Shown here piece after piece: positions 41,330 through 47,891 of a DNA stretch of 64,000 bases (position 1 is its first letter; the number at the start of each line of letters is the position of its first letter). Made by a program: the position numbers and the translations under genes. The notes under the pieces are model-generated. The model ran no database searches. It was not told the origin of the DNA and saw only the letters and a list, made by a program, of their open reading frames with translations. The stretch is from an uncultured Opitutaceae bacterium (GTDB lineage Bacteria > Verrucomicrobiota > Verrucomicrobiia > Opitutales > Opitutaceae): contig CAIOZY010000025.1 in the NCBI GenBank assembly GCA_903862935.1, positions 94,579-158,578 of the forward strand, written 5' to 3'.

Positions 41330-42952
41330 TCAAGGCGGGGCCGCGCCGTCCGTGGCATAGTCCCCTCCGACATGAAACACGCCACCTCCCTCCCCCAGCA
41401 GCCGGTCCAGGCCGATCCCCACCTCTTCGACGTCAGACCCATCCCGTGCCGGGTGAAGCACGGCCAGATCCTGCAGCGCTGGCTCGACCTGCCTGTCGGC
41501 GGCCACTTCGTCCTCTTGAACGACCACGACCCGGTGCCGCTGCGCTATCAATTTGAGTCCGAGTTCCCCGGGGCATTCCGCTGGGACTACGCCGAGCGCG
41601 GGCCCGAGGATTTCCGGGTCAGGATAACGAAGCTCAAGGCGGTCGAGGCCCCCGAGCGGGCCCCCGCCTCGCCCCCGCCGGCGGCCGCCGGGAGCCCGCC
41701 AGAGATCGACGCCCGGGGCCTGATGCCCCCCTCGGGCACCATCAACTTCCGTTACGCAAGTTTGGACAACCGTGGACAACACGCTCGTTTCGAGGGCATT
41801 GCCACCGTGACCGTCTGCACTATCGACCACCTGATCCGGGACAGATTTGGACTGTTTTGGACAGGATTTCCCAAAATTTGGGGAAGCTATTGAGGAAGGT
41901 AACACCGTGGCCAGTTTCTCCATCTCAGCGAACAGAGGGATGCTCCTCGGATCGGTGTAACGATCCGTCTGCCTCCACTCGCTGTGCCGGGCCAGCTTCA
42001 CCCGAGCCAGTTCTGAAACACCCACGTTCGCCAAGAAACTTGCGAAGGTGTGCCGCAATGCGTGGAAGTCCACCCGGTAACCCCGTTCGTCTTCGATAGG
42101 AATCCCACAAGCGGCGAGATCGATTTCTAGGCTCCGCACGCTTGGCAGTCCTCGTGGGAATACCTTGTCCGCCTCCGAGACCACGCTTGCCCGTAAAAGC
42201 CTAAGTGCGGCCGCTAGCGGTGGGACTAACGGAATCACCGCACTTCTCTTACTCTTGGTGATTTCGGCTCGAACGTCGATAAACGGCTGGGTTTCGTCCA
42301 GGCGGATATCCGACCAAAGCAATTGCTTTAGCTCCCCCCGTCGAAGGCCTGTGCAGCCAGCGAACAGATAGGGTAGGCGACGTTTTCCGCTCGACTCCAC
42401 CAGCTGCCAGAATTCCTCACGGGTTAGTGCCCGTCGATGGAATGTCTCCTTCTTCGCCAGTTTTGAAACAGCCCGAAGCGGGTTGTACGGACTCCGCCCT
42501 TGCCGCTCCATCCAGTTTAAAAGCGCCATCGCATGACCGAGATACTCGTTAAGCGTTTTTGTCGATAAACCGGATTGCCTAAGACGCCACTTAGTGAAGC
42601 TATCCGCCGTTACGTCCCGGAGGGTTACCCAACCGCATTCTTTCAATAGCCGCTTCAAACGGCACCTTACATGGACGAGGTGAGCCCGGCCGCGATTTCG
42701 CAACTCGAGATCCGCGGCAAAATCCGCAGCATGCTGAGTCAACGGGAGCAGAGTGGCTTCTCGCAATGACTTTGGCCCGAGCAGCCCTGCCAGCTCCTTC
42801 TCCTCGTCTTCGATAAGGTTTCGTGCCTTGGCCTCAGCGACTTCCTTTATGTGGGTTTTTAGAGGCTTATCGAAAATCTTCGGACCGTCACTTAGGCGGT
42901 AGCGCACACGATAAACCCTGCTGCCACGGGGACGGAAGATGCGTTTATACAT
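41330..42952 (-). CDS. Tyrosine recombinase/phage-type integrase; the integrated-form ORF reads through attL into host DNA
   Basis: MYKRIFRPRGSRVYRVRYRLSDGPKIFDKPLKTH; catalytic-type motifs LFAGCTGLRRGELKQLLWSDI, HALRHTFASFLANVGVSELARVKLARHSEWRQTDRYTD. No in-frame stop until 41330, beyond att. Confidence 0.93.
   Translation of the reverse strand: MYKRIFRPRGSRVYRVRYRLSDGPKIFDKPLKTHIKEVAEAKARNLIEDEEKELAGLLGPKSLREATLLPLTQHAADFAADLELRNRGRAHLVHVRCRLKRLLKECGWVTLRDVTADSFTKWRLRQSGLSTKTLNEYLGHAMALLNWMERQGRSPYNPLRAVSKLAKKETFHRRALTREEFWQLVESSGKRRLPYLFAGCTGLRRGELKQLLWSDIRLDETQPFIDVRAEITKSKRSAVIPLVPPLAAALRLLRASVVSEADKVFPRGLPSVRSLEIDLAACGIPIEDERGYRVDFHALRHTFASFLANVGVSELARVKLARHSEWRQTDRYTDPRSIPLFAEMEKLATVLPSSIASPNFGKSCPKQSKSVPDQVVDSADGHGGNALETSVLSTVVQTCVTEVDGARGGHQAPGVDLWRAPGGRRRGRGGGPLGGLDRLELRYPDPEILGPALGVVPAECPGELGLKLIAQRHRVVVVQEDEVAADRQVEPALQDLAVLHPARDGSDVEEVGIGLDRLLGEGGGVFHVGGDYATDGAAPP
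41372..41730 (+). pseudogene. 5' part of DUF2249-domain gene, interrupted by the integrated element (3' part at 47714-47891)
   Basis: MKHATSLPQQPVQADPHLFDVRPIPCRVKHGQILQRWLDLPVGGHFVLLNDHDPVPLRYQFESEFPGAFRWDYAERGPEDFRVRI...PPEIDARGLMPP. Joining to 47714 continues ...EPLVRILEGLETLPAGETLTARTDREPCHLFGEAAQRGFRHQSQIQPDGSWVTTLTRG* in frame. Confidence 0.9.
41877..41898. repeat. 22-bp direct repeat copy 1 (TTTGGGGAAGCTATTGAGGAAG)
   Basis: Perfect match to 47617-47638. Lies in the integrase 3' coding region (encodes SSIASPN on the minus strand). Confidence 0.95.
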
Positions 42953-43154
42953 GACTGCCCCCTCTTGCATCGCCCTTTCCCAAATAGGCTAGAAGCGCGC
43001 TCCTCCAAATTACCCAACGTCCGCCCTCTTTGAAGGCAGATAGCTTCCCGGCTTGGATGCGTCTGTAAACCGTCTTCTCGTCTGCTCGAATTTCAGCCGC
43101 GATTTCAGGCACCTTTAAGAGCCGGTCGGAATCCTGTGGGCATCCGTCATTCAT
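42945..43154 (-). CDS. Excisionase/helix-turn-helix DNA-binding protein
   Basis: MNDGCPQDSDRLLKVPEIAAEIRADEKTVYRRIQAGKLSAFKEGGRWVIWRSALLAYLGK: MerR/Xis-like HTH, overlaps the integrase start. Confidence 0.8.
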   Translation of the reverse strand: MNDGCPQDSDRLLKVPEIAAEIRADEKTVYRRIQAGKLSAFKEGGRWVIWRSALLAYLGKGDARGGSHV

Positions 43155-43645
43155 TGCCGTTTCCCCTTTCCTTTGCGAAGTTGTTCCCGCTCCCACCGAG
43201 AGCCCGGCTCAAGAAACTCTCCATACCAGTCCGGCTTGTCCCCCTCCAGCTCTGCCGGTGTCACCGCCCCCGCCTCAATCGCCCTCCGTTCTATTTCTTT
43301 GCCCCAAGCCCGACACTCGCTTTCTGGAATCATCAGCACTTCCAACTCGCGTACCTCCTTGCTCACCCCAAAAAGATTACGCTTCCTATGGGTAATGTCG
43401 TAACGGAAGCACGTCAGCTTCCCGTCCTTGATCCGCTTGTGAACAGCTGCGCGTGACACAGGGGCGAACATGGCTACGCCGCCCGGTGACACCGCGTGCC
43501 CAAAGCGGCTCTCGATTAGACTGTACCAGTATCTAATCTCTTCATGCGGGCCTGCCTTTCGGTAAACCCTGCTGCCAGGAACGGGCTCGCCTAGAGCCTT
43601 GTGCAGATCAGGCGTGACGTTCACGAACGGGAAAACAGTTGCCAT
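43151..43645 (-). CDS. Hypothetical element-borne protein, possible DNA-binding regulator
   Basis: VSRAAVHKRIKDGKLTCFRYDITHRKRNLFGVSKEVRELEVLMI has an HTH-like segment. Located in an operon-like run with xis and int. Confidence 0.5.
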   Translation of the reverse strand: MATVFPFVNVTPDLHKALGEPVPGSRVYRKAGPHEEIRYWYSLIESRFGHAVSPGGVAMFAPVSRAAVHKRIKDGKLTCFRYDITHRKRNLFGVSKEVRELEVLMIPESECRAWGKEIERRAIEAGAVTPAELEGDKPDWYGEFLEPGSRWEREQLRKGKGKRQ

Positions 43646-43675
43646 GACGTCAACCTATGAATGATTGACGCTGTG

Positions 43676-44104
43676 TCAACCTATATTTCGCCCTCTTCTC
43701 AATACCCGCTCCAACTTCGCAAAACACCGGGAGAACGCTGGCCCTTTGAGCTCGTGCTCCCAGACCCTGAGCACACTCCATCCAAGCTTTCTGAGAGCAG
43801 CCCCCACTCGCCTATCTCGCCTCCTGTTCGCCTCTATCTTTGCTTTCCAGTACTCCCGATTGGCTGAGGGCAGCCTCATGTGAGTTGCACAGCCGTGCCA
43901 AAAACAGCCATCGATGAACACCGCAACACGCTCTTTTTGAAATAAAAAATCGGGCCGTCCTGTGACCTGAGAATTCCGGCACCACCCAGTGATACCGTGC
44001 CAGCGCAGCCCGGCTAGGAATCTCAACTCAGTCGACCGATTCCCGCGGCTTTTGATTGCCGCCATGATTCTCGATCGCTCCTCCGTTGTGAATCGATCGC
44101 TCAA
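43676..44104 (-). CDS. vsr: Very short patch repair (Vsr) endonuclease
   Basis: SRIMAAIKSRGNRSTELRFLAGLRWHGITGWCRNSQVTGRPDFLFQKERVAVFIDGCFWHGCATHMRLPSANREYWKAKIEANRRRDRRVGAALRKLGWSVLRVWEHEL. TTG start. Confidence 0.93.
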   Translation of the reverse strand: MSDRFTTEERSRIMAAIKSRGNRSTELRFLAGLRWHGITGWCRNSQVTGRPDFLFQKERVAVFIDGCFWHGCATHMRLPSANREYWKAKIEANRRRDRRVGAALRKLGWSVLRVWEHELKGPAFSRCFAKLERVLRRGRNIG

Positions 44105-44132
44105 TCTCGCCTGCTCCCCCTGTCACGCCAAC

Positions 44133-45062
44133 CTATGCGCCAACAATCTCAATCTTTAGCGATGGGTCCCTTTCGTATCGGTCAATCAGCTCGTTGTATC
44201 GCTCCACAAGCTCAGCGGTCTTGATCCTTCGGCTGTCGCCCTCAAACACAGCTGCTTCGTGGATATTGCCGGCTAGGAACTCCTCGGCCCCGAAGATGTC
44301 CACGCGGTCCGCAATCTCGAGGGTCTCCGCGAGTCCGTAAGCAACAGCCGTCTTCTGACACAGGGTTACAATCATTGGGCGCAACCCTGCACCAAGATTT
44401 TCGCTGCATTTCCGCAATAATGCTTCACCGGGACTTGTCGTCACGTGAATGGCCATATCTCCCCACACGAAATCCCCAGCCCTCCCCTCCGCTCTGTCCG
44501 CCTCAGAAGCCGAGTGGTGCTCAATCTGCCCCTTCGTGATGCCGGCAAACTTTGCTCCGATAAGATGCTGCAACATTATCCCTTCGGATCGTGACCCCAC
44601 CATTTCCCTCTGACGAACTCGGGCCTGTCCCAATACGTCACTAACAGCCGCCCTAACCGAAAGGGCCGCATCAACTCGAAACTTGAATGGCTTCCCTGCA
44701 AAATAGCCTAAGACCTGTTCCACCCAAAACTTTTCGACCTCCGCTAAGTCAAGACCACCGTTCTCGGCATGGAGTGCATTTAAGAAGCCAACATAAATCC
44801 GCATCTTATCGATGGAACCCCGCGAGGTGCGGCCTCCCTCCTCGGAGAGTACCCTTTCAATTCCGTGCCGTTTCAGAATTGCTTGAACGGCTGCTTTCCC
44901 AAGTCCCTTCACCTGGCCTTTCTTTGGAGCAAGCATTTGATCTGGATCGAGCGGCAAGCACGCCTTTGCGTGGTCCGTCACCACAAGAGCGACTGATAGC
45001 GCGCCGGATCCTGAAAACCCGTTGTCTGTTGCGAATCCTAACAGCTCACTTTTTAGACTCAT
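44133..45062 (-). CDS. DUF4928-like protein, putative restriction-modification partner (candidate endonuclease)
   Basis: Located between the C5-MTase (4-nt overlap ATGA) and Vsr. Sequence ...SEGIMLQHLIGAKFAGITKGQIEHHSASEADRAEGRAGDFVWGDMAIHVTTSPGEALLRKCSENLGAGLRPMIVT. Confidence 0.65.
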   Translation of the reverse strand: MSLKSELLGFATDNGFSGSGALSVALVVTDHAKACLPLDPDQMLAPKKGQVKGLGKAAVQAILKRHGIERVLSEEGGRTSRGSIDKMRIYVGFLNALHAENGGLDLAEVEKFWVEQVLGYFAGKPFKFRVDAALSVRAAVSDVLGQARVRQREMVGSRSEGIMLQHLIGAKFAGITKGQIEHHSASEADRAEGRAGDFVWGDMAIHVTTSPGEALLRKCSENLGAGLRPMIVTLCQKTAVAYGLAETLEIADRVDIFGAEEFLAGNIHEAAVFEGDSRRIKTAELVERYNELIDRYERDPSLKIEIVGA

Positions 45063-46192
45063 GCGATTGCTTGTGCCATCTCAGCGTTAGCCGCTGCCAA
45101 TGGATCTAGAAGGTACCGCCTCAAATGTGCAACGACTGGAACACACAACCCGTCACCAACCACATCATAGGCGTCGTTGTATTCAGGCGGTAGCCAGTAT
45201 GAAGCCGGAAGGCCTTGTAATCGCGCGGCTTCTCGTGGTGAAAGCAGGCGGGAACGAACTTGCGAACCATTTACCTCTAGGACGATTTGCCGCGATGACC
45301 CTCCAGCACTTGTTCGCAAGCAGCCGGCAACACCGTCGAATCGAACCTCCGCTCTCTGTTTTCCATTTCGGGTTCGGCGGTAAACTGTGCCGACGATTCG
45401 CCTGTGTAACTCTTGGGCTTGGCGCACCTTCGAGCGATGCAGTTCATTCATCAGCGACAATAAGTAATCGGTCTCCTGCTTGCTATGCCACGAGACCCAG
45501 CCTCGCGGGTTTTTCTCGATGAGCGTGCCTAGCCTGCGAACTCGCCTGACAGGCGCAGGGAGAGTCCACCAGATCCATTTCCCGCGCGCCTCATCCGAAA
45601 TCGACCCGAAGGCTCTTATCACAGCATTATCATGCCAAAGCGACTCAGGCCCAAACTGACATAGATGTTCCGGGATCGTAGCACCTTGCCGCACCGCTAT
45701 CACAAATAGTCTTGGACGCGATTGCGGGACAAAGAGGGCCGCATCAATGACCAGTGGTCCGAATCGATAATCCGCCCCTGATAAGGCAGAACAGATCGCC
45801 CTGATATCCTGTCCGTCGTTAGACGTTAAGGCACCTTCAACATTTTCAAGAACGATCAAGGTCGGCCTGACGGTCCGCATTAACCTCATGAAAGGCCAGA
45901 ACGTTCCTGACCTCGTCCTCTTCTTCGCGTTGCTATGCCCAATGCCCTCCTTATCTCCAGCTAACGATAAGTCTTGGCATGGGAACGACGCCCAAGCGAG
46001 GTCTGCTGGCGGAACAGTGGTCGGATCGACGGCTGCAACATCGCCTTCGACCAGTTCATTGCCGCCCCAATTCTCTCGATAAATCCGCGCTTTTGTTGGA
46101 TCGAAATCGTTCGCCCATTGGCAGGCCCAATCATTACCCAGCCCCGCGCGGGCCATGCCCCCGCCGGCGAAGAATTCCAAGAAATTGGGCAT
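45059..46192 (-). CDS. DNA (cytosine-5-)-methyltransferase
   Basis: LEFFAGGGMARAGLGNDWACQWANDFD; ASFPCQDLSLAG (PCQ motif); LIVLENVEGALTS (ENV motif); VPQSRPRLFVIAVR; SPREAARLQGLPASY. Confidence 0.95.
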   Translation of the reverse strand: MPNFLEFFAGGGMARAGLGNDWACQWANDFDPTKARIYRENWGGNELVEGDVAAVDPTTVPPADLAWASFPCQDLSLAGDKEGIGHSNAKKRTRSGTFWPFMRLMRTVRPTLIVLENVEGALTSNDGQDIRAICSALSGADYRFGPLVIDAALFVPQSRPRLFVIAVRQGATIPEHLCQFGPESLWHDNAVIRAFGSISDEARGKWIWWTLPAPVRRVRRLGTLIEKNPRGWVSWHSKQETDYLLSLMNELHRSKVRQAQELHRRIVGTVYRRTRNGKQRAEVRFDGVAGCLRTSAGGSSRQIVLEVNGSQVRSRLLSPREAARLQGLPASYWLPPEYNDAYDVVGDGLCVPVVAHLRRYLLDPLAAANAEMAQAIA

Positions 46193-46237
46193 GAGTCAGC
46201 AAAGCGTTTGCTGCGCCCCAATGTCAATCCGCTCTGC

Positions 46238-47503
46238 CTACTCGCATTTAACCCCTGGCATTTTCCCGTTTGTTCGCGGCTGAAGAGGACCGGGAGGAAC
46301 CTCTGAAACAACGGTTGATATGAAGGTCTCCCAGTCAGAAGCGCTCGCTCCGATCACCATTCCGCGCAGGCGATAGCACCAATTTTGTCCGAAGCGCCGC
46401 CGTAGGCCTTCGAAATCCGTTCCGCCTGCCGCTACCGCTAGTTCGCCCAATCGTTTTCGCCACGCCGCCGCACCCGGAGACGCCCAACTGAACTGCCGTG
46501 AGCAGCGCCTCCAACTCGCTGCCTCTCTTCTGTCGCACTCAACACGCCGGCAACCCTTCCATTCGCCCCTCCGGAAGTGTAGTCCTGCCTCAAGATACTT
46601 GCCGATATATTCAGCCACAGCTGCTTCGGCTTTACGGAAAGGTAAGAACTCGGAGCGGCCCAATCCGTATCGGGAGCACCAGCGTCGCAGTTCAGCCCAA
46701 CATTTTCGAAGCTCAGGAGGAGCGTTCCGCGCATATTCCTTTGTCAACGCCCTTGCTGTGCCAAGATCGCCCTTCTTACGAGCGGCCGCCGCACCCCAAA
46801 GGGCCTCCCAGTCGAATGCATTTGGTTTCAGGTCAAACGGTGTAGCTACCAACAGGTGCCAATGAGGAGCCCCCCTTTCTTGAGGCTCTAGAACTCGGAT
46901 ATACGAGCGAATCCATGGCAGGCGACGCCGTCGCATTTTGTGCCAACGCTGCGCGAATTCCCTTGGATTTAAGTCTTCTCGCGTTGTCAGGGTCAGGAAT
47001 CCGCACTGTTCCCGGCGATAGTGCTCAGAAAAGGCTTCAACATTCCTGCGCAGGGCGAAAGCACCCTTTCGCTCAGGCGGGCTCGGTGGCTCCATGGTTA
47101 CCCATGTCTTTCCATCCTCAGACCTCCGCCAATGGCGGCCTGCGTTATCGAATCCGTCGTCCTTTCCTTCCGCCTCACAGTCGATTCGGACACCCTCGCC
47201 ATTGTGGTACCCGTAGATGGTCGCTGTCCGGGTAAGCCGATACTCGCCCGGCAGTCTGTAGGTCGCGCAATTGTTTTTATTTCGACTAGGAAGGCCGGCG
47301 GGGCCGCTCAGGCCGCGCTCCGCGCGGCCTGGGGCGTCCCCTTCCGGCCCCCAAGCCTCGGAATTACCCCACGCCCCTTCCCCCGCCCCAACGGGGCGGG
47401 GAACCTCCCGCTTGCTCTGGGCGCTTCGCTGGGGCTCCGCGTCCCGTCGCTGCGCTCCGCCATCGACGGAGCCGCAAGCGAGTTCTGACTCACCGGGTCC
47501 CAC
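46238..47503 (-). CDS. HUH-superfamily rolling-circle replication initiator (Rep); start codon uncertain
   Basis: GFLTLTTREDLNPREFAQRWHKMRRRRLPWIRSYIRVLEPQERGAPHWHLLVATPFDL (HxH = HUH motif) and AVAEYIGKYLEAG (YxxKY catalytic-Tyr motif). The N-terminal ~70 codons overlap a GC-rich hairpin region and may not be translated. Confidence 0.8.
   Translation of the reverse strand: MGPGESELACGSVDGGAQRRDAEPQRSAQSKREVPRPVGAGEGAWGNSEAWGPEGDAPGRAERGLSGPAGLPSRNKNNCATYRLPGEYRLTRTATIYGYHNGEGVRIDCEAEGKDDGFDNAGRHWRRSEDGKTWVTMEPPSPPERKGAFALRRNVEAFSEHYRREQCGFLTLTTREDLNPREFAQRWHKMRRRRLPWIRSYIRVLEPQERGAPHWHLLVATPFDLKPNAFDWEALWGAAAARKKGDLGTARALTKEYARNAPPELRKCWAELRRWCSRYGLGRSEFLPFRKAEAAVAEYIGKYLEAGLHFRRGEWKGCRRVECDRREAASWRRCSRQFSWASPGAAAWRKRLGELAVAAGGTDFEGLRRRFGQNWCYRLRGMVIGASASDWETFISTVVSEVPPGPLQPRTNGKMPGVKCE
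47310..47330. other. Perfect hairpin (AGGCCGCGC TCC GCGCGGCCT), candidate part of the element replication origin
   Basis: 9-bp perfect stem (10 bp with the outer C-G pair 47309/47331) and a 3-nt loop upstream of the Rep gene. Confidence 0.6.
47381..47401. other. Perfect hairpin (CCCCGCCCC AAC GGGGCGGGG), candidate part of the element replication origin
   Basis: 9-bp perfect stem and 3-nt loop, 50 bp from the preceding hairpin. Confidence 0.6.
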
Positions 47504-47616
47504 GGGCCGCCTCCATTGCGGCCCGAATCAGTGTCAATAGTGCATCACGTACGGGCTGACCTAGCAGTGGCCAACACTGGACGATTGTGCCCAGTTCTGG
47601 ACTCAGTTTGTCAGCG

Positions 47617-47638
47617 TTTGGGGAAGCTATTGAGGAAG
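47617..47638. repeat. 22-bp direct repeat copy 2 (TTTGGGGAAGCTATTGAGGAAG)
   Basis: Perfect match to 41877-41898. Also encodes SSIASPN on the minus strand, in the frame that would continue from the integrase in a circular form. Confidence 0.95.
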
Positions 47639-47713
47639 CTCGCGATTTCTCACTTTTGGAAGTGATTATTTTGCAGCAACCTCCGTTAGACCCTTTGGGG
47701 GTTCGATGCCCCC

Positions 47714-47891
47714 GGAGCCCCTGGTGCGCATCCTGGAGGGCTTGGAGACGCTGCCCGCCGGGGAGACTTTGACGGCCCGAACCGACCGGGAGCCCTGCCA
47801 TCTTTTCGGCGAGGCCGCCCAGCGCGGATTCCGCCACCAGTCCCAGATTCAGCCCGACGGAAGCTGGGTGACGACCCTCACCCGGGGCTGA
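47714..47891 (+). pseudogene. 3' part of the interrupted DUF2249-domain gene
   Basis: EPLVRILEGLETLPAGETLTARTDREPCHLFGEAAQRGFRHQSQIQPDGSWVTTLTRG*. An ATG inside the att core (47706) could restart translation. Confidence 0.88.

Follow-up and report, generated by a model that had tools for sequence, protein, structure and literature searches.

A tRNA-Leu-type integrative element, very probably off target in a DUF2249 gene, with attP inside the integrase reading frame

Results

The element and its genes

The window, a stretch of 64,000 nucleotides from an uncultured Opitutaceae bacterium, contains an element of approximately 6 kb that interrupts a gene encoding a protein with two DUF2249 domains (Table 1). 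The first of these domains is intact in the 5′-part of the gene, from where the frame enters the element and stops at position 41893. The frame of the tyrosine integrase (Int) in turn runs through attL into the antisense strand of the DUF2249 gene. Int comprises a catalytic domain, as indicated by a PF00589 match above the cut-off and by the R, HxxR, H and Y positions, which are conserved in the family alignment. For the small HTH protein the HTH_17 match lies above and the TIGR01764 (excise) match below the respective cut-off, and for the replication initiator (Rep) PF23343 scores better than RepSA, which reached 20.3 bits versus a cut-off of 34 bits. Searches against Pfam, PADLOC and NCBIfam yielded no family match for the 164-aa protein, and no ORF of the element gave a Pfam match to relaxase or type IV secretion genes.

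The methyltransferase gene adjoins that of the DUF4928 protein, which is probably a type II restriction endonuclease, and profile matches thus predict a type II restriction-modification cargo. The methyltransferase, the DUF4928 protein and Vsr are not apparent among the ORFs of a sibling element on contig C17 of the same genome, and homologues of DUF4928 were found in just 4 of the 188 other genomes searched, indicating that the restriction-modification genes together with Vsr represent variable cargo.

Table 1. Features of the element and of the interrupted gene (positions in the window).
Feature	Position	Strand	Evidence or remark
5′ part of interrupted DUF2249-DUF2249 gene	41372..41722	+	PF10006 E=1.3e-24 on ORF 41372-41893
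attL	41722..41741	+	GATGCCCCC core 41722-41730, then CTCGGGC, discriminator A and CCA from the left end of the element
Tyrosine integrase	41330..42970	-	PF00589 E=2.1e-13; family search
Left arm-type direct repeat TTTGGGGAAGCTATTGAGGAAG (putative)	41877..41898	+	within int coding sequence; encodes SSIASPN
Small HTH_17 protein, excisionase-like	42945..43196	-	PF12728 E=1.5e-9
164-aa protein without family	43151..43645	-	profile searches
Vsr mismatch endonuclease (cargo)	43676..44104	-	TIGR00632 116 bits, above cut-off
DUF4928 protein (cargo)	44133..45062	-	PF16280 E=9.1e-55; PADLOC REase_II E=1.8e-43
C5 cytosine DNA methyltransferase (cargo)	45059..46192	-	PF00145 E=2.5e-45
HUH/rolling-circle-type replication initiator (rep)	46238..47503	-	PF23343 REP_ORF2-G2P E=4e-10; N-terminal start uncertain
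Detached integrase C-terminal tail	47490..47704	-	in frame with Int only in the circle; stop overlaps rep start
Right arm-type direct repeat TTTGGGGAAGCTATTGAGGAAG (putative)	47617..47638	+	partner of left copy
attR	47697..47713	+	T-arm GGGGG-TTCGATG-CCCCC from the right end of the element; sequence
3′ part, second DUF2249 domain	47714..47891	+	PF10006 E=8.6e-12 on ORF 47706-47891; rejoined frame

The joined ends of the element rebuild a tRNA 3′-end

The right-end sequence GGGGGTTCGATGCCCCC maps to positions 47697-47713 and the left-end sequence CTCGGGCACCA to positions 41731-41741. As noticed in the first-pass annotation, joining both ends reconstitutes a tRNA 3′-end, CTTTGGGGGTTCGATGCCCCCCTCGGGCACCATCAAC, consisting of a T-stem of 5 bp, the 7-nt T-loop TTCGATG, the 3′ acceptor strand CTCGGGC, the discriminator A and CCA. 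The same junction can be written as TTGGGGGTTCGATGCCCCCCTCGGGCAC(CA), where TTGGGGGTTCGATGCCCCCCTCGGGCAC represents the first 28 bases. The exact repeat common to attL and attR comprises the 9-bp sequence GATGCCCCC at positions 41722-41730 and 47705-47713, and this is likewise all that the reconstructed attP has in common with the DUF2249 site. The 7-bp spacers are unequal, with CCTGATG in attL and TTCGATG in attR.

Excision of positions 41731-47713 in silico generates a single DUF2249-DUF2249 frame of 178 codons, which aligns across the junction with uninterrupted relatives at 66-73% identity. Since the draft genome consists of 62 contigs, one might suspect that a tRNA-integrated element was erroneously joined to a DUF2249 contig during assembly. 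However, removal of the element restores the gene frame exactly, both junctions are present on one contig of 158 kb, and the tRNA-Leu(CAA) site described below was assembled separately with a different sibling beside it, which renders such an artefact extremely improbable.

Moreover, the element harbors an exact direct repeat of 22 nucleotides, TTTGGGGAAGCTATTGAGGAAG, compared to a maximum of 11 in shuffled sequences. Most elements of the family contain internal direct repeats, located approximately 120-137 bp from the left end and 55-71 bp from the right end, which mostly exceed the longest repeat in the shuffles; the left copy occupies the same position, +120 to +137 from the CCA, in most siblings. 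These repeats are probably arm-type Int sites.

The host tRNA-Leu(CAA) gene matches attP

Using the T-arm pattern, we located in the host genome a tRNA-Leu(CAA) gene (C40:121364-121448) that is identical to attP over the 28 bases of TTGGGGGTTCGATGCCCCCCTCGGGCAC. The 16-mer GGGGTTCGATGCCCCC is present at two sites only in the 3.35 Mb genome, namely at the right end of the element and in this gene. Given the 28 identical bases and the two occurrences of the 16-mer, the match is not due to chance. The tRNA-Leu-type end proposed in the first-pass annotation is thereby supported, except that the 5′ acceptor strand is GCCCGGG, which pairs with CTCGGGC via one G-U pair, and not GCCCGAG. The 28 identical bases are followed by TCT; the gene ends with CTCGGGCAC-T, and CCA is not encoded. 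When the host genome was searched for exact copies of CTCGGGCACCA, 11 matches were obtained, none of them beside a tRNA called by ARAGORN; tRNA-Leu(CAA) escaped this search because CTCGGGCA is followed by CTC instead of CCA in the host gene.

Directly downstream of tRNA-Leu(CAA) we found a sibling integrase (56% identity), which is apparently a remnant; in the stretches scanned on the element side (L024, L082) no right end of this sibling element was observed. The core of the tRNA gene beside it is intact, so that an occupied primary site does not by itself account for the mis-targeting. In other members of the genus, the T-arm and the acceptor of tRNA-Leu(CAA) deviate from attP at a few bases, suggesting that the 3′-end of the host gene may itself be derived from an element. 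The sibling on C17, 4.46 kb in length, resides in tRNA-Leu(CAG) and encodes an integrase, a small HTH protein and a Rep-like protein; both of its ends are visible, with a T-arm copy at each.

Related integrases are located at tRNA and tmRNA genes

Relatives of the integrase were sought across 372 genomes of the order and their flanking regions were retrieved. At 46 of the 51 related loci, not counting the window, the 3′-end of a tRNA or tmRNA gene faces the 3′-end of the integrase gene, mostly 146-212 bp beyond the integrase match; in the window, the attP CCA lies at a corresponding distance of 166 bp. The targets of the family include Leu, Glu, Ser, Pro, Gly, Lys, Asp, Val, His, Gln, Asn and Met tRNAs as well as tmRNA. 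Two of the five exceptions lie at contig ends, one of them with a residual tRNA-Asp 3′-end, two show tRNA-like 3′-ends adjacent to sequence that is not tRNA, and the last has no clear pattern. The latter three were considered as additional off-target cases and rejected, since the far end of L154 is unresolved, L168 appears to belong to an array, and L162 revealed nothing clear.

The closest integrase found, with 78% identity in the best segment, is encoded by Verrucomicrobia bacterium RYN_616 and adjoins a tRNA-Leu(CAG) gene that ends exactly with CTCGGGCACCA. A tRNA gene with this end thus exists in a relative, in addition to the 28-bp match in the host, and tRNA-Leu is the site of four of the five closest relatives. 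None of the related integrases examined abuts a DUF2249 gene. In about two dozen genomes of the family, the homologue with two DUF2249 domains is uninterrupted. These data bear out the earlier proposal of an element that is built for a tRNA gene and was captured here in a protein-coding gene. As the copy in the window is not in a tRNA gene, its assignment to the tRNA-targeting elements is based on attP and the siblings.

Where the second copy is visible, the att repeats of the siblings typically comprise 26-37 bp, extending from the T-arm to the CCA. With only 9 bp, the repeat in the window is an outlier, as expected of an off-target event. A repeat this short would also be compatible with arrival at the DUF2249 gene without the element's own integrase, for instance by transposition or homologous recombination. 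However, the breakpoints at both ends coincide exactly with the T-arm core that the siblings use, the inverted repeats around the 7-bp spacer are kept at the site, and there is no transposase among the identified genes of the element; we regard this route as scarcely credible. Matches to free circular forms were absent from the plasmid and phage collections searched, and collections of viral contigs contained just two distant relatives with 24-25% identity.

The insertion site in the DUF2249 gene

The insertion point coincides with the conserved motif DARGL-x-PPEP. At position x, 11 of 11 relatives have Glu (GAG or GAA), while the interrupted gene has Met, encoded by an ATG inside GATGCCCCC. 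As the change from Glu to Met requires at least two base changes, the simplest reading is that the ATG was imported from the attP spacer, and the shared 9-bp core probably includes attP-imported bases. If so, the original site would have been CGGGG-CCTGGAG-CCCCC, matching attP (GGGGG-TTCGATG-CCCCC) at 11 of 17 positions; the site as now found differs from the attP core at 4 of 17 positions. With the sequence CGGGG-N7-CCCCC it mimics a T-arm. The pattern GGGG-N7-CCCCC occurs at dozens of places in the host genome, and some other sites show fewer mismatches to the attP core than the DUF2249 site. Similarity to attP was therefore rejected as a sufficient reason for the choice of this site.

Within the genus, the DUF2249 gene is present in this genome only and absent from the other 12 genomes, and its interruption by this element is known from one copy. 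The first-pass annotation considered the gene inactivated. The second domain is indeed cut off; the first domain survives, which points to a partial disruption and leaves partial function possible.

Alternatively, the integrase lineage could have switched its specificity, with DUF2249 now representing the regular target and the tRNA-like attP a relic. Consistently, the DUF2249 site holds the only copy of the element's own integrase in the host genome, and the Int and Rep frames are intact. Nevertheless, attP retains 28 bp of exact identity to the tRNA, including the acceptor strand that is absent from DUF2249, the nearest relatives reside at tRNA-Leu genes, the attL and attR spacers differ, and all other DUF2249 genes examined are uninterrupted by the element. 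We thus consider a switch of specificity unlikely and favor an off-target insertion.

attP is located inside the integrase reading frame

When the element is circularized virtually, the Int frame crosses attP and continues into the right end, with a stop codon 212 nt past the join. The same frame remains open for over 100 nt beyond attP in 22 of the 25 elements with both ends visible, or in 20 of 23 without L030 and L025, whose attR was re-picked after the first choice had given an early stop. The attR copy was otherwise picked by repeat length; for L030 the second of two candidates and for L025 the T-arm copy was taken. The Int frame is the longest of the three frames in those 22 elements, and the median distance to the next stop codon is 200 nt, compared to 37 and 21 nt in the other two frames. 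The remaining three elements measure 1.4-2.0 kb.

The tails of 15 elements constitute one family with the pattern LxxVVxxWPxLxxxxRxAIxxIVxA. Their pairwise identities at the three codon positions are 0.50, 0.64 and 0.34, respectively, and dN is lower than dS in those close pairs that allowed an estimate of both, as would be expected if the tail is translated. In most elements the stop codon of the tail and the next start codon share a few bases, frequently in the form of ATGA or GTGA. The gene following the common tail type encodes a Rep-like protein, identified by a Pfam match for the copy in the window and by visible similarity for the others. Furthermore, L154 displays a tail-like C-terminus before attP, and at L142 a second integrase is encoded by a single frame that comprises the body, a tRNA-like att and the tail.

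The catalytic residues and the PF00589 domain remain on the attL side after integration, which removes about 65-70 C-terminal codons. Due to the position of attP inside the frame, integration exchanges the C-terminus of Int and detaches rep from int. Judged from the reading frames, the lost tail would be replaced by residues encoded antisense to the tRNA, or here antisense to DUF2249. Phage integrase genes with 3′-ends overlapping attP are known. Phrase searches of open-access papers, which extend neither to subscription journals nor to other wordings, retrieved no description of an attP inside the integrase frame in bacteria.

Discussion

We consider it very likely that the window contains a tRNA-Leu-type integrative element that lies off target in a DUF2249 gene and carries attP within the int frame, and we infer the choice of its primary site. 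According to this model, a small rep-int element, encoding a rolling-circle-type Rep, an excisionase-like HTH protein, a tyrosine integrase and restriction-modification cargo, would carry an attP that mimics the 3′-end of tRNA-Leu. Integrases of this family would insert elements into tRNA and tmRNA genes at the T-arm, with the tRNA being restored by element-borne sequence. Recombination would then have taken place at the T-arm-like inverted repeat in the DUF2249-DUF2249 gene, which served as a secondary site despite its mismatched 7-bp spacer, and would have severed the second domain. As the attL and attR spacers are unequal, as at the secondary sites of ICEBs1, excision is predicted to be inefficient.

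In the free circle, Int would run via attP into the tail at the right end, the stop codon of which overlaps rep. Irrespective of whether it occurs on or off target, integration would replace the C-terminus of Int and separate rep from int. The long and short forms of Int may differ in activity, and rep might be expressed mainly from the circle, so that the arrangement could serve as a switch of Int direction or of rep expression. We see about an even chance that, with attP placed in an int-tail-rep coding unit, recombination sets the state of the element: the circle would specify long Int and Rep and the chromosome short Int without coupled Rep, and an off-target Int would bear an abnormal tail derived from antisense DUF2249.

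The pSAM2-like elements of actinobacteria are small and encode a replication initiator, an excisionase-like protein and an integrase beside attP in a tRNA gene. The element described here shares its small size and these three components, with the integrase next to attP, but differs in that the RepSA match is below the cut-off and no transfer gene was identified. In Tn916, genes near opposite ends are connected only in the circle, by transcription into the transfer genes. Likewise, opposite-end genes are linked only in the circle here, though also by one reading frame up to rep.

ICEBs1 of Bacillus subtilis uses a primary site in a tRNA-Leu gene, with a 17-bp core composed of 5-bp inverted repeats and a 7-bp spacer (PMC3715440). 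Its secondary sites are located in protein genes and have 2-12 mismatches, where mismatched spacers result in an attL that differs from attR; integration at these sites was obtained in the laboratory by deletion of the primary site (PMC3715440). The element in the window resembles ICEBs1 with respect to the tRNA-Leu-type site, the inverted repeats with a 7-bp spacer, the secondary site in a protein gene and the unequal spacers of attL and attR. In contrast, it resides in another host, no conjugation genes were identified, the event is natural and not selected, and attP lies inside the int frame, which the available text does not mention for ICEBs1 (PMC3715440). Taken alone, the off-target insertion is a naturally occurring instance of a known phenomenon, for which a single genome provides both ends, the tRNA and sibling elements.

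The position of attP in int is the more novel part of the finding. The attachment site of the SSV-type (suicidal) integrases of archaea is located within the integrase frame, and integration splits the gene such that the N-terminal part is separated from the catalytic domain (PMC8371274). A 2021 review states that self-gene-disrupting integrases occur only in archaea (PMC8371274). The elements studied here share with the SSV type the location of attP inside the integrase frame. However, their catalytic core remains whole and solely the C-terminal tail is lost, and the Pfam match is PF00589 and not PF16795. The wider pattern matters more than the single insertion: in this bacterial family, integration disconnects both a C-terminal tail and rep from the integrase gene, pointing to a state switch that would be inherent in the attachment site and can be tested.

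Integrase reading frame and attachment sites

In the circular form of the window element, attP is crossed by the reading frame of the tyrosine integrase Int, which runs on into the right-end tail, the stop of which overlaps the start of the replication initiator gene rep. Of 25 elements, 22 have an Int frame that crosses attP into such a tail; the count becomes 20 of 23 once two with a re-chosen att copy are excluded. Moreover, the 22-nt direct repeats, which keep their positions in most of the integrase-element family, are probably arm-type integrase sites; they likewise encode a repeated peptide.

All 11 relatives checked carry a Glu codon where the interrupted DUF2249 gene has the core ATG, which suggests that bases were brought in from attP during strand exchange. 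In the second DUF2249 domain (window 47706-47891) an ATG falls precisely within the core and closely follows a GGGGG run, and this domain could be translated separately.

Features of the element and of related loci
Feature	Location	Strand
ATG within 9-bp shared core	window 41723-41725 and 47706-47708	
22-nt direct repeat, one copy either side of attP	window 41877-41898 and 47617-47638	
int frame, integrated state	window 41330-42970	-
Right-end tail, joined to int frame across attP in circular form	window 47490-47704	-
Restriction-modification cargo (C5 methyltransferase, DUF4928 probable endonuclease, Vsr)	window 43676-46192	
Host tRNA-Leu(CAA), adjoining sibling integrase	L024 9364-9449 (contig C40)	
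Left end of second element (roughly 100 bp), after right T-arm copy of tRNA-Leu(CAG) element	L025 16233-16350 (contig C17)	
Second integrase; a single unbroken frame runs from its body through tRNA-like att sequence to the tail	L142 3635-5131 (int-minus orientation, reverse complement of stored locus)	

Sibling elements and related loci

The host tRNA-Leu(CAA) is without an encoded CCA, and its 3′ end may be element-derived. On C17, the left-end stretch of the second element is a truncated tandem copy; no C5 methyltransferase, DUF4928 or Vsr cargo is apparent in the C17 sibling. In addition, at the family loci L154 and L168 we observed tRNA-like 3′ ends adjoining non-tRNA sequence, about 190-350 bp past the integrase 3′ end; these may be remnants of an array or additional cases of off-target insertion.
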